A model generated the notes under the pieces. That model made no database searches and was not told where the DNA came from. It saw only the letters and a program-made list of their open reading frames with translations. The translations under genes and the position numbers were made by a program. From Kiritimatiellaceae bacterium (lineage in GTDB: Bacteria > Verrucomicrobiota > Kiritimatiellia > Kiritimatiellales > Tichowtungiaceae): a stretch of DNA of 50,149 nucleotides. This document shows, in pieces, positions 17,411 to 46,918 of this stretch (the first letter of the stretch is position 1; each line of letters opens with the position of its first letter). The DNA is taken from positions 1 to 50,149 of the forward strand of contig JABFQY010000004.1 in the NCBI GenBank assembly GCA_013141415.1, read 5' to 3'.

Positions 17411-17458
17411 GTAGCCGCGATCCACGATCGCGGAACCGAGGTCAAGGACCTCGGCTAC
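17411..17458. repeat. REPIN (48 bp), CCGCGATC subtype, copy 1
   Basis: GTAG, stem CCGCGATC/GATCGCGG with loop CAC, spacer AA, stem CCGAGGTC/GACCTCGG with loop AAG, CTAC. Exactly 48 bp. Differs from 17749-17796 only in the first loop. Related to 37875-37927. Confidence 0.9.
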
Positions 17459-17748: not shown

Positions 17749-17796
17749 GTAGCCGCGATCCCTGATCGCGGAACCGAGGTCAAGGACCTCGGCTAC
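17749..17796. repeat. REPIN (48 bp), CCGCGATC subtype, copy 2
   Basis: GTAG, stem CCGCGATC/GATCGCGG with loop CCT, spacer AA, stem CCGAGGTC/GACCTCGG with loop AAG, CTAC. Same length and sequence as 17411-17458 apart from the first loop. Confidence 0.9.
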
Positions 17797-19016: not shown

Positions 19017-20882
19017 TCAAAAAAATTTATTCAGCCAATCCGTGACCCGAACATCGAAGCCGGTGCCGTGCTGATAATTATACGTGGCGGTGCGGAGCGC
19101 TTCGCCGATGGCGGCGAGGTCGTAACCAAACTGTCCGTCGAACGGAATTTCGTTACGGGCGAATCCGCCGGAAGTTTCCGGCAAGAGTTTGATTCCAAAC
19201 CGTTCGGGTTCGCGGGCAATTTCGCTGTGCGCCGTCAGCGCGAAGCGGTGCCAGTAGGCCGAATGTAAAACGCCCTCTTCCATTAGACGGCGGACGGTTT
19301 CCAATCCCTGGAAGGTTTCGTCCAGTGTCTGCGTCGGAAAGCCGTACATCAGGTAGGCGTGTGTCATGATGCCCGCCACTGACAGATTCACCAGAACTTC
19401 TTCTGCTCCGGCGACGGTGATGCCTTTGTTCATCAGCTTGAGTGTGCGGTCACAGCAGGTTTCGAGTCCGCCGGTGACGGCGATACATCCGGCATCGGCC
19501 ATCTTTTCGATCAGTTCTTTAGTCAGCCGTTTTTCAAAGCGGATATTGCCCCACCACTCGACGTTCAGTTCGCGGCGCAGAATTTCGTCGCACAGTCCGG
19601 CGAGTAGCGCAGGCGGAAGCGCTTCGTCGACAAAATGGAATCCGTTAAAGCCGGTCGCGGCGATGACCGATTCCATCCAGTCGCAGACGGTGGACGGGCG
19701 CGCCGGATCGTAGCGGCAGATGTAGTCGATGGTCGTGTCGCAAAAAGCGCAGCGTTTCCAGTTGCATCCGTGCGCCAGCACCAGCTTGTTCCAGCGTCCG
19801 TCCGACCAGAGCCGCGTAACCGGATTGAGCACTTCAAACAAACCGAAGTAGCGGTCGAGCGGCAGGCCGTCATAAACCGGCGGCGGAAGCGTGTCGTGCG
19901 CGACCGGCGTTTCGCCGCTGTCATAAAAACAGACGACTCCATTCTCACGAACAAACGTCCGTACAAAATTCGCCGGTTCCGCGCCTTCGGCAATCCGGAG
20001 AAGCGGAAGCATGCCGCTGTCGAGCGTGATGAAATCAACGGTTTCAAAGATGGCCGGATCGGTCAGTTCGCGCAGTTCAGTGTTCGCGTACCCACCGCCC
20101 AGCACGATGCGGATTTCTGGCCGGGTCTGTTTAATCCGCCGCGCAATGGCCAGCGCGCCGAACAGACAACCGGGAAACGGAACGGTGATTCCAACCAACT
20201 GAGGGCTGTATTTTTGAATCTGCGCGTCAGTCAGTTCTTCCAACCATTGGAAAAAGAGCAAGGCCGGCGGGACGCCGGCGGTACATATTGCCGCCGTCCC
20301 GGCGTCCGCAGAACGTATCGCCGGCGTCCCGCCGGCCTTGGAATTTAAAACTGACGGCGCGCTCGGCGATCGCGCCCTACCTTGCCGCTCCAGTGCCTCC
20401 TGAATCTTTCCGAAGTTTGGAAGTGAGGACGCCAGATGCTCAGCGTAGCGGGAAAAGCCGAAGTGCGGATCAATCAGCGCGGCGGCTTCGGCGATGTCGT
20501 CGAGAAACAGACTGCATAGATGGCGGGCGCGGTCATGGCGGTCGAGTCCGCGGAAATCCCAGCCGAACTGTTCTTCCTGTTCATAGGCACGAACAAGGTG
20601 CGTTCCTTCCGGAAGTGCGCCGCGTTTGGCAAACCGTTTTGCTAACGATGGATTTTTGTCCTGTAAAAACTCCATCACATCGCCGATCACCGCGCGGTAT
20701 TCGTCATCAAGATTCAGATGCGAGAGACCGTCGGCAGAAAATAATTTAAGAAGCAGTTCGAGCGAGAGGTCGGCCTGCACCGCGTCGTGCCCGCAAAAAC
20801 GAAGCCACGCCGTGAGAATCGGCGTGGCGGCGTACGGCGTGTTCGGCTGTAACAGCGGCGGCGTTAGCAAAAGGGTTTTCAT
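19017..20882 (-). CDS. B12-binding domain radical SAM protein with repeat-derived insertion
   Basis: 621 aa. The N-terminal part resembles the start of cobalamin-binding radical SAM proteins (MKTLLLTPPLLQPNTPYAAT). A Rossmann-like stretch (LVGITVPFPGCLFGALAIAR, RIVLGGGYANTEL) follows at about 223-272. The radical SAM core contains the cluster motif GCNWKRCAFCD near residues 377-387 (CxxxxCxxC spacing, as in proteins with GCxWxxCxFC) and GGLETC near 475. The reaction is unknown; methyl transfer or a radical rearrangement are both possible. Residues about 168-208 are encoded by palindromic repeats (20260-20380) and probably form a disordered loop. The start at 20882 has no evident ribosome binding site; a REPIN ends 13 bp upstream. 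Confidence 0.85.
   Translation of the reverse strand: MKTLLLTPPLLQPNTPYAATPILTAWLRFCGHDAVQADLSLELLLKLFSADGLSHLNLDDEYRAVIGDVMEFLQDKNPSLAKRFAKRGALPEGTHLVRAYEQEEQFGWDFRGLDRHDRARHLCSLFLDDIAEAAALIDPHFGFSRYAEHLASSLPNFGKIQEALERQGRARSPSAPSVLNSKAGGTPAIRSADAGTAAICTAGVPPALLFFQWLEELTDAQIQKYSPQLVGITVPFPGCLFGALAIARRIKQTRPEIRIVLGGGYANTELRELTDPAIFETVDFITLDSGMLPLLRIAEGAEPANFVRTFVRENGVVCFYDSGETPVAHDTLPPPVYDGLPLDRYFGLFEVLNPVTRLWSDGRWNKLVLAHGCNWKRCAFCDTTIDYICRYDPARPSTVCDWMESVIAATGFNGFHFVDEALPPALLAGLCDEILRRELNVEWWGNIRFEKRLTKELIEKMADAGCIAVTGGLETCCDRTLKLMNKGITVAGAEEVLVNLSVAGIMTHAYLMYGFPTQTLDETFQGLETVRRLMEEGVLHSAYWHRFALTAHSEIAREPERFGIKLLPETSGGFARNEIPFDGQFGYDLAAIGEALRTATYNYQHGTGFDVRVTDWLNKFF
20260..20380. repeat. REP cluster inside the radical SAM gene
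   Basis: Near-perfect 25-bp inverted repeats at 20260-20284 and 20315-20339 (AAGGCCGGCGGGAC... and its complement, one mismatch; inner ends GTAC and GTAT) enclose 30 bp. A further GTAG-footed hairpin follows at 20356-20380 (on the minus strand GTAG, then stem GGCGCG/CGCGCC). The whole cluster is read through in frame by the radical SAM gene and encodes an Ala/Gly/Pro-rich tract including AGGTPAI and AGVPPAL. Confidence 0.8.
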
Positions 20883-20895
20883 AAACGCTGTTAAC

Positions 20896-20943
20896 GTAGG
20901 ACAGCCATCTTGGCTGTCTAGACAGGCTGGAAGCCTGTCCTAC
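20896..20943. repeat. REPIN (48 bp), GACAGGC subtype
   Basis: GTAG, stem GACAGCC/GGCTGTC (loop ATCTT), spacer TA, stem GACAGGC/GCCTGTC (loop TGGAA), CTAC. It fills the gap between the ilvH stop (20945) and the radical SAM start (20882). Transcribed as RNA it would form two strong hairpins, so it may also terminate or stabilise the ilv transcript. Confidence 0.9.
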
Positions 20944-37874: not shown

Positions 37875-37927
37875 GTAGCCGCGATCCTTGATCGCGGACT
37901 AAACCCGAGGTCAAGGACCTCGGCTAC
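37875..37927. repeat. REPIN (53 bp) overlapping the end of tcdA
   Basis: GTAG, stem CCGCGATC/GATCGCGG (loop CTT), spacer ACTAAAC, stem CCGAGGTC/GACCTCGG (loop AAG), CTAC. Same stems as 17411-17458 but with a 7-nt spacer. It sits between convergent genes. Its CTAC foot (37924-37927) read on the minus strand gives the TAG stop of tcdA (37924-37926). Confidence 0.9.
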
Positions 37928-38742
37928 AAAATTCCGTAATCCCGTTCGCCAGATTTCCGGCAAACATCCTGCACAACCAGTCCGGCGAGGTTGAAACCAA
38001 ACGCACCGGTGATATGCACCATCGAGCCGTTGATCTGCGCTTTCTGATGGCACCAGACATCGGACGGAATTTCGTTCCCTTCGTCATCAAGTTGTTTGGG
38101 ACAGAAACAATGCGCTGAACCGCAGGCGGCTTTTACCGCTTCGAATGCCGGAAGCATTTCCTCGGAATAGACGCATAGACAGTCGCCGGTCGCGCCGCGC
38201 TGACGCAACCGCTTGCGAACGAAATGGGCCAGCCGGCAACCGCGCGATTTCCAGATCGAATCCACGCGAATCGTCGTGGCATCCAGTTTACTCGCCGCGC
38301 CCATGGCGGAAAAGAGCGTAACGCCGGATTCCATCGCGGAGGCAATCAGATCGACCTTATGCGACAGGCTGTCGATGGCGTCGATAATGTAGTCGTAGCC
38401 CGTCAGATTGAATTCCTCGCGCGTTTCCTGATTATAAACTTTCTGTAGCGCCGTGATGTCTGCGTCAGGATGAATGTCGAGCAACCGTTCCTTCAGCGCG
38501 TCAACCTTCGACCGGCCGACGTTTTTCGCCGTCGCCTGAAGCTGGCGGTTGATGTTGGTCACACAGATTACATCGTTATCCACAATCGTCAGATGGCCGA
38601 CGCCGGAACGGATCAGCGCTTCGGCGCACCAGCTGCCGACACCGCCGACGCCGAACAGAATCACGCGGGTCTCTGAGAGCTTCTTGAGCGCCGCTTCACC
38701 GATCAATAATTCGGTTCGATGAAATGCCGGATGTTTTTTCAT
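37924..38742 (-). CDS. tcdA: tRNA threonylcarbamoyladenosine dehydratase
   Basis: 272 aa, E1-like (ThiF/MoeB fold) enzyme that uses ATP to cyclise the t6A37 side chain of tRNA to ct6A. The nucleotide-binding Rossmann motif FGVGGVGSWCAEALIRSGVG is at about 30-49. DNDVICVTNINRQLQA (Asp/Asn/Arg of the adenylation site) follows at 55-70. YDYIIDAIDSLSHKVDLI is near 118-135 and the conserved GDCLCVYS near 190. Full length and matching TcdA/YgdL/CsdL rather than ThiF or MoeB. The stop codon is part of a REPIN, so the native C-terminus may have been altered. The start overlaps the upstream gene's stop by 4 nt. Confidence 0.93.
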   Translation of the reverse strand: MKKHPAFHRTELLIGEAALKKLSETRVILFGVGGVGSWCAEALIRSGVGHLTIVDNDVICVTNINRQLQATAKNVGRSKVDALKERLLDIHPDADITALQKVYNQETREEFNLTGYDYIIDAIDSLSHKVDLIASAMESGVTLFSAMGAASKLDATTIRVDSIWKSRGCRLAHFVRKRLRQRGATGDCLCVYSEEMLPAFEAVKAACGSAHCFCPKQLDDEGNEIPSDVWCHQKAQINGSMVHITGAFGFNLAGLVVQDVCRKSGERDYGIL

Positions 38743-39752
38743 ATGTTTCGCAGTGCGGATGAGGAAATATCTGCGCGGAATTTTGATTCCGGCACAGCTT
38801 CAAAAAGTGACGCGAAACCCGGCGGCAGAGCAAGATTTTCCAGAGTCTGAAAAACTCCGTTGTGTTGGCGACCGGCGACCAGAAATTTGGTTTCCAAGGT
38901 TTGGATTTTTTTCCAATCTTCGGATGTGTAGTCCTTGATGAACCGGATCGCTGTATCGAACCCGACCACAAAGGTGGTTTTAGAAAAAAGTTCGGCCTTC
39001 TGAATAAAGCGCGGAGCGTGCGTCAGTGCCACCGGAATATCGCGGATGGCGGCGGCGCGCTTCAGACATTCGGCTTCCGGCGTTTCCGGTTTATCGACAT
39101 TGACGCAGGAAAGCTCAAAGGTTCCGCGAAGACCGGTCATTTCTTCCGCGACGTTAAGTAAATTGAAATGTCCCTGATGAACCGGATTGAACGAACCGGG
39201 AAGCATCAGTCCGCGCTCCGCGCCGACAGCCTGCCCGATGAGAACAAGCAGCCAGTCGCTCAAAAGCGACTCCTGCTCCGCGCGGGAAGCTTTGGAAAGA
39301 TGAAGTGCGTAAACTTTTTCTGTGTCAGCGTTTTTTATGCAGATGAACGCGCGGTCGTCGCCGCGCCGTTCGCGATCGGTTTGCAGAGCGGCGGTGCAAG
39401 CGATTCCCATAACGTAGGACAGGCTTCCAGCCTGTCTAGACAGGCAGGATGCCTGTCCTACATTTTCAATAGCTTTCTTTGCGAGCGCACGAACAGTTTC
39501 GGGAGAGACGGATTGCAAAGGAGCTTCGCCAAGAAAGCGTTCGAGCGCTTCCGGCGAATACGGCACATGCGCCTCGGAGACAAAGCGCGAGGCGCCGGGA
39601 GTGCTGAGCAGTGCATTGAGCGCTCCCGATCCGCCGCCGGTTGTGACCAGCACCGCCCGCCAGCCGGAGTTTATAATTTTCGATACCACAGTCATATCCG
39701 AGTTCGTTTTATACCGGTTTCTGCTCCGAAAAACAGAATTATATGTTGTCAC
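38739..39752 (-). CDS. CinA-like domain fused to a nucleotidyltransferase (NMNAT-like)
   Basis: Up to 337 aa from GTG 39752 (AGGA 4 nt upstream); ATG 39695 would begin just before the first domain. The N-terminal domain (about 22-95) resembles the CinA C-terminal (NMN amidohydrolase) domain: RAVLVTTGGGSGALNALLSTPGASRFVSEAHVPYS. The C-terminal domain (about 180-337) is a HIGH-type nucleotidyltransferase: GSFNPVHQGHFNLL and SSSALR. Both activities fit NAD or pyridine-nucleotide recycling. Known CinA domains carry an SCTGG motif where this has TTGGGSG, so deamidase activity is uncertain. Residues about 98-113 are encoded by a REPIN inserted in frame in the linker (39414-39461). Coupled to tcdA by a 4-nt overlap. 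Confidence 0.82.
   Translation of the reverse strand: MTTYNSVFRSRNRYKTNSDMTVVSKIINSGWRAVLVTTGGGSGALNALLSTPGASRFVSEAHVPYSPEALERFLGEAPLQSVSPETVRALAKKAIENVGQASCLSRQAGSLSYVMGIACTAALQTDRERRGDDRAFICIKNADTEKVYALHLSKASRAEQESLLSDWLLVLIGQAVGAERGLMLPGSFNPVHQGHFNLLNVAEEMTGLRGTFELSCVNVDKPETPEAECLKRAAAIRDIPVALTHAPRFIQKAELFSKTTFVVGFDTAIRFIKDYTSEDWKKIQTLETKFLVAGRQHNGVFQTLENLALPPGFASLFEAVPESKFRADISSSALRNI
39414..39461. repeat. REPIN (48 bp) inserted in frame in the CinA/NMNAT gene
   Basis: GTAG, stem GACAGGC/GCCTGTC (loop TTCCA), spacer TA, stem GACAGGC/GCCTGTC (loop AGGAT), CTAC. Exactly 16 codons, read on the minus strand as VGQASCLSRQAGSLSY. The other two frames contain TAG stops, so only this phase could be tolerated. 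Confidence 0.92.
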
Positions 39753-46853: not shown

Positions 46854-46918
46854 AAGGTATGTAGTTCCGCCTTCAGGCGGCATCACCTGCTCCGGCTAAA
46901 GCCGGAACTACATACCTT
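46854..46918. repeat. REPIN-like element with extended arms
   Basis: The outer arms AAGGTATGTAGTTCC and GGAACTACATACCTT are perfectly complementary (15 bp) and contain the GTAG (46861-46864) and CTAC (46908-46911) feet. Inside are two hairpins, CCGCC-ttca-GGCGG and CCGGC-taaa-GCCGG, joined by about 10 nt. The GTAG-to-CTAC core is 51 bp. It lies between the dinG and HTH genes. Confidence 0.85.

Follow-up and report, generated by a model that had tools for sequence, protein, structure and literature searches.

A repeat-encoded tract within a radical SAM gene

The window, the whole stretch of DNA that was analyzed (50,149 nucleotides), is contig C4 of the source genome of a Kiritimatiellaceae bacterium (G000; 2.22 Mb, 7 contigs). 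It contains a gene for a B12-binding radical SAM (rSAM) protein that hosts a cluster of REP elements (Table 1), and the reading frame is uninterrupted through the REP-encoded tract, giving a single ORF. Pfam analysis of the protein revealed a B12-binding domain at residues 212-273, followed by a Radical_SAM domain at residues 369-522; the former corresponds to the part after the tract that the earlier note, made from the sequence alone, had described as Rossmann-like. Both domains and the conserved cysteines are undamaged. The top NCBIfam match, TIGR03975, scored 82 bits, under the cut-off of the model, and the protein was therefore given no function.

Table 1. Genes and REP elements in the window, with the basis of each assignment
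Feature	Position	Strand	Remarks
rSAM protein gene (B12-binding), carrying the REP cluster	19017..20882	-	621-aa ORF; Pfam, NCBIfam
In-frame inserted tract, residues 168-208	20259..20381	-	Missing from most homologues; protein and codon alignments, AlphaFold2 disorder
First half of F2 REPIN (GGTAGGG...CCCTACC type), GTAG-footed hairpin GTAGGGCGCGATCGCCGAGCGCGCC	20356..20381	-	Complete REPIN at the same point in relative G041
F1 REP cluster, three hairpins, nested in or adjoining the F2 hairpin	20259..20340	.	Outer arms, 20259-20280 and 20319-20340, pair without mismatch
F3 REPIN, 48 nt, GTAGGACAG...CTGTCCTAC	20896..20943	.	Between the rSAM gene and the next upstream gene, out of reading frame
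318-aa CinA / nucleotidyltransferase-like protein gene with in-frame REPIN	38742..39695	-	Named by sequence reading; no NCBIfam match
F3 REPIN read in frame in the CinA-like gene, VGQASCLSRQAGSLSY	39414..39461	.	
F4 REPIN, intergenic, GTAGCCGCGATC...GACCTCGGCTAC	17411..17458	.	
F4 REPIN, intergenic	17749..17796	.	
F4 REPIN, intergenic	37875..37927	.	

On the coding strand, the tract consists of one half of the F2 hairpin pair, a short linker, and the 82-nt F1 cluster. The inverted repeat arms of this cluster (20259-20296 and 20303-20340) showed 84% complementarity across 38 nt, with exact complementarity of the outer 22 nt, and the GTAG-footed hairpin was found at 20356-20380 on the minus strand. 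These data bear out the earlier description of inverted repeats read through in the rSAM gene together with an additional hairpin of this type; both peptides reported there, AGGTPAI and AGVPPAL, were also correct, as was the residue range of 168-208. The F1 core GCCGGCGGGACGCCGGC is present here in two exact copies, whereas shuffled versions of the window would be expected to give 0.56 matches (three or fewer mismatches). A BLAST search of the 2.2 Mb genome with the 82-nt cluster gave 18 matches, counting the cluster itself, which therefore belongs to an interspersed family. F2 is likewise a member of an interspersed family. As interspersed palindromic hairpins arranged mostly in inverted pairs, these repeats satisfy one criterion for GTAG REPs and REPINs. 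The foot of F1 is GTAC, whereas F2, F3, F4, and most other families have a GTAG foot, so that the match of F1 to a RAYT rests on flanking position only.

Absence of the tract from homologues and structural modeling

A homologue of the rSAM protein was found in 30 of the 43 searched genomes of the order. Nearly all of these proteins lack the tract and run directly through "..LE--DSLFFQWLEEL", with most matches breaking exactly at residues ~166 and ~209, and class-level homologues likewise align chiefly from residue ~205 onward. Codon alignment revealed a complete F2 REPIN (GGTAGGGCGCG...CCGTCCCTACC) at the point of the tract in G041, and the nested tract, a first F2 hairpin followed by the F1 cluster, in both G000 and G042. 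An independent single F1 REPIN occupies the same loop in G032, a member of a different subclade, and the G042 gene carries an additional F2 REPIN near residue 313. Separately, the G001 protein (L039) was seen to have an unrelated 20-residue insert at this loop, with a short hairpin in its DNA.

In the rSAM protein tree, G041 (F2 only) and G000 (F2 and F1) were joined with a support of 0.91, excluding G042. Because of this pairing, an order of F2 followed by F1 can hold only with a loss in G041, an exchange, or a small error in the tree; as far as can be judged from the sequences, insertion of F2 before F1 is likely but not certain.

The AlphaFold2 model of the rSAM protein, built from a 26-sequence alignment, had a mean pLDDT of 80.8. 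Values below 50 were confined to residues 168-205, a segment without secondary structure that is flanked by helices at residues 158-166 and 209-225, although the predicted disorder of the tract may in part reflect sparse sequence coverage there. The earlier note had interpreted the tract as repeated, tolerated insertions at a permissive loop and had suggested alignment with homologues lacking it and modeling of residues 168-208 as checks. Both have now been run, and their outcome, together with the relatives carrying nested or independent REPINs, supports this interpretation; conservation of the tract across the family or its folding into a structured domain, either of which was to count as refutation, was not seen. 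The idea of tolerated REP insertions in a loop thus holds, but its scope was set too low, as the process extends over the whole genome and to the REP transposase as well.

In-frame REP elements across the source genome

A total of 850 kb of the source genome was analyzed in stretches, in which self-BLAST identified 90 repeat loci, grouped by eye into about ten families and consisting mainly of GTAG...CTAC hairpin pairs. Some of the stretches had been picked near REP or RAYT hits, and the REP counts are therefore not an unbiased estimate. Genes were called with a simple home-made hexamer-model caller and left uncurated (713 genes, 88% coding). Deep within about 15 of these genes lay 21 of the 90 loci, all in frame, which is far fewer than the ~79 expected for unselected placement. 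The hosts, as identified by NCBIfam, included a RecB/AddA-like helicase, an RluA-type pseudouridine synthase fusion, a U32/TrhP-like protein, NadE, MetG, an MnmL/YtqA-MnmC2-like protein, PriA, XseA, RsmE, TilS, AlaS, and YgiQ. Being in-frame palindromes within functional genes, these elements show one of the features of Rickettsia palindromic elements.

Comparison of the rSAM, RsmE, NadE, and CinA-like proteins with those of congeners showed insertions confined to one or a few species. The RsmE and NadE inserts were present only in G000; that of the CinA-like protein was found in G000 and, as a similar peptide at the same site, in G038, and was missing from most congeners. Different repeat-encoded peptides occupy the same place in the NadE linker of G035 (L129) and G040 (L130).

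Several side observations concern the repeats themselves. The NadE linker peptides of L129 and L130 contain repeated VEQTLLSA and QTGVSASQ and apparently stem from another repeat family. Two REPINs of a single family lie in frame at different positions in AlaS (L099:9603-12335), and the same holds for TilS (L096:3988-5307). Within the window, REP-like families with copies elsewhere in the genome were noted at 349-465 (long, GATGCCGGTACTGCCGGAAC...) and at 46856-46916 (GTAGTTCCGCCTTCAGGCGG...GGAACTAC).

RAYTs embedded in frame in host proteins

The in-frame inserts of PriA and XseA in the source genome hold an entire RAYT (NF047646), and a third in-frame RAYT, with nearly identical F1 REPINs on both sides, lies in a DUF4080 B12-radical SAM gene (L030, G000:C7:48950). 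The REP families flanking these RAYTs are F6 in PriA, F3 in XseA, and F1 in L030; no F2-flanked RAYT was found in the source genome. The F1 REPINs of L030 are read in a frame other than that of the rSAM tract in the window (GKRDACDTSAVxQASRLPC). In PriA (L089:4538-7432), the RAYT lies between F6 REPs (NVDATPSSR ... RDGGVASTL) and itself contains another F6 REP pair, which is also read in frame.

RAYTs within large ORFs occur in most genomes of the order. Their named hosts are XseA, PriA, the CCA-adding enzyme, HypF, diphosphomevalonate decarboxylase (MvaD), CmoB, and the DUF4080 rSAM protein, and terminal RAYT fusions were found with CobQ, TatD, and MTHFS. Relatives of the embedded RAYTs were detected in 112 of the 388 genomes of a phylum sample. 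Among the matches listed, 38 from 30 genomes outside the order sit in open frames of at least 450 aa (manual count), and the hosts identified among the few examined there were LeuS, CarB, HsdR, and a RarA-like ATPase. Complete REP-RAYT-REP units (REPtrons) reside in frame within housekeeping proteins throughout the order and, it appears, throughout the phylum.

The embedded domains matched Pfam Y1_Tnp above the cut-off, and their profile matched TnpA-REP 4er8 and IS200-type transposases. The HuH motif was undamaged in all embedded RAYT domains covering it, and the catalytic Tyr was kept in all except L224. In this PriA of G032, His replaces the catalytic Tyr (FQQHIEDNP) beside an undamaged HuH motif, and the copy is perhaps inactivated. 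A Pfam scan of the fused proteins found no intein Hint or homing-endonuclease domain, the only domain within the insert being Y1_Tnp. In the XseA-RAYT model, most of the RAYT was predicted with confidence (the majority of 10-residue blocks at 82-95, two at 63-70), the left REP-encoded linker (residues 195-225) was below 50, and overall confidence was modest (pTM 0.39). The top 50 Foldseek matches of this model included no transposase and returned ExoVII (8txr), and the RAYT assignment therefore rests on sequence profiles.

Insertion states and selection at the XseA and PriA sites

The XseA site occurs in three states depending on the species: empty (TATCTCAATACCCGAAGTGACATTGAC), with a REPIN (AATAAA-GTAG...CTAC-TATCGAT), or with a REP-RAYT-REP unit whose outer GTAG...CTAC is identical to that of the REPIN state. 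The PriA site is likewise empty, occupied by a REPIN, or occupied by a REP-flanked RAYT. At both sites, presence is patchy inside one genus, with close relatives keeping intact empty sites, and the REP family varies between species. Phylogenetic analysis revealed that RAYTs from the same host gene cluster together, that the XseA and PriA sites each contain two lineages, and that most RAYT lineages include members of both families of the order.

Embedded RAYTs are under strong purifying selection. Where computable, their dN/dS was 0.05-0.12, as low as that of the host enzymes, with the caveat that synonymous sites were close to saturation in many pairs. Synonymous divergence of the RAYT usually exceeded that of the flanking host gene, as in PriA of G033 and G032 (pS of 0.72 for the RAYT versus 0.33 for the host).

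Discussion

Our data make it highly probable that the tract arose when RAYT-type REP elements inserted, nested and in frame, into a surface loop of the rSAM protein. The insertion relative to homologues, the identity of the REPs, their recurrence throughout the genome, and embedded RAYTs that retain catalytic residues under purifying selection were all observed. It is inferred that a RAYT was the mover of these copies, that fusion proteins are produced, and that the tract is functionless, with no experiment on transposition or on a translated fusion behind these inferences.

Exaptation, in which the hosts use the REP tract and RAYT domains (e.g., for nucleic acid handling by PriA, XseA, and the CCA-adding enzyme) and this function is selected, would fit the kept catalytic residues, the resemblance of RAYT dN/dS to host dN/dS, the host-gene-specific RAYT clades spanning two families, and the many hosts acting on nucleic acids. 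We nevertheless consider it unlikely, given the patchy presence within one genus beside intact empty sites in close relatives, the usually higher synonymous divergence of the RAYT than of the host gene, and the unrelated nature of other hosts (HypF, MvaD, NadE, CarB, and rSAM). The presence of both families of the order in the XseA and PriA RAYT clades could also point to ancient domain fusions, inherited vertically and repeatedly lost, without mobile insertion. This scenario appears more doubtful still: two separate RAYT lineages share one PriA site and two share one XseA site, the REP families at a site differ among species, REPIN-only states occur at the same point, and the RAYT of the G033/G032 PriA pair is far more diverged than its host.

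An assembly artefact or a pseudogene can scarcely be entertained. The assembly is apparently environmental (7 contigs) and REPs are repetitive, but the same nested tract is present in the independently assembled G042, the frames stay open for hundreds of codons under purifying selection, and neither the rSAM domains nor the conserved cysteines are damaged. The richness of the tract in Ala, Gly, and Pro might suggest GC-rich low-complexity drift or local expansion without REP mobility, a reading left with virtually no credibility; it is already refuted by matches of the tract to palindrome families dispersed elsewhere in the genome, and the tract also ends abruptly against homologues. An intein was dropped as a candidate because no intein or homing-endonuclease domain was found in the fused proteins searched, the ends of the insert are DNA hairpins, and there is no sign of protein splicing.

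For the nested REP insertion, we envisage that a GTAG-tagged F2 REPIN landed at codon ~167 in the ancestor of G000, G041, and G042 and that F1 then inserted in or adjoining it. The elements may have been retained because they are stop-free in that frame, keep the frame, and lie in a loop between two helices. The mover would likely be the HuH/Y1 transposase RAYT (TnpA-REP), whose cleavage and movement of the repeat are inferred. Complete REP-RAYT-REP units also occupy other proteins of these bacteria in frame, and against this background the loop insertion resembles a non-autonomous form of a transposon lineage that can live within coding sequences. Insertions would survive if they are in frame and in loops; the RAYT would be translated as an inner domain, and the host's need for the protein would guard the RAYT frame. 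REPIN-only sites, of which the rSAM tract would be one, could arise by loss of the RAYT from between its REPs or by separate insertion. We tentatively favor, with considerable doubt remaining, the broader view that a RAYT clade in this phylum has become a protein-resident mobile element, in which REP-RAYT-REP units insert in frame into essential genes where a site is permissive, are translated as an internal host domain, are shielded from decay by the host frame, and spread between orthologous sites in a homing-like manner without protein splicing, leaving or seeding in-frame REPINs such as the rSAM tract.

REPs were named "extragenic," and RAYTs are regarded as free-standing, mostly domesticated genes. 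The occurrence of both within translated genes at scale suggests an added route by which bacterial proteins acquire new segments, as well as a means of persistence for a transposase concealed within an essential reading frame. Annotation pipelines will meet transposase fusions in PriA, XseA, LeuS, and CCA-adding enzymes, which should not be dismissed as errors. The series of empty, REPIN, and REPtron states at one site makes REPIN origin and RAYT mobility directly testable.

Intragenic GTAG/CGTC REPs have been described as palindromes, often dimers, within ORFs, where they encode 20-30 residues and at most 82 (Di Nocera et al. 2013, PMC3733652). They are commonest in the verrucomicrobium Opitutus terrae, their hosts include uvrA, recB, and tRNA synthetases, and recB of two Xanthomonas carries different REPs at about the same place (PMC3733652). 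Our elements, apart from the GTAC foot of F1, share with these the GTAG-tagged palindromes, often dimeric and read within ORFs; whereas that study lists REPs in ORFs, here the empty, REPIN, and nested states were dissected per site across a clade, together with whole in-frame RAYTs. Rickettsia palindromic elements similarly lie in frame in many functional genes, and some of the decorated proteins are expressed; however, the rickettsial REPs are of the CGTC type and have no associated transposase (PMC3733652), whereas ours are mostly of the GTAG type and accompanied by RAYTs. Inteins and homing endonucleases resemble the present units in that they lie in frame at fixed positions in conserved genes, are patchily distributed, and form site-specific lineages, and differ from them in the features for which an intein was dropped above.

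REPtrons comprise pairs of REP hairpins and a REP-flanked RAYT with a HuH and Tyr core (PMC3116915, PMC8266576, PMC6006769). For subclass 2.4, REPs have been reported inside tnpA-REP genes (PMC6006769). The same study set aside unexpectedly long RAYT proteins as fusions or annotation errors. Known REPtrons are described as free-standing genes, whereas here the unit forms an in-frame internal domain within housekeeping proteins. No report of RAYTs in frame within housekeeping genes or of RAYT fusions was found in the open-access literature, subscription papers and preprints being outside our scope. In-frame intragenic REPs are thus already known from Opitutus terrae and Rickettsia, and what is new, within the open-access literature, is the presence of complete REPtrons in frame in housekeeping proteins.
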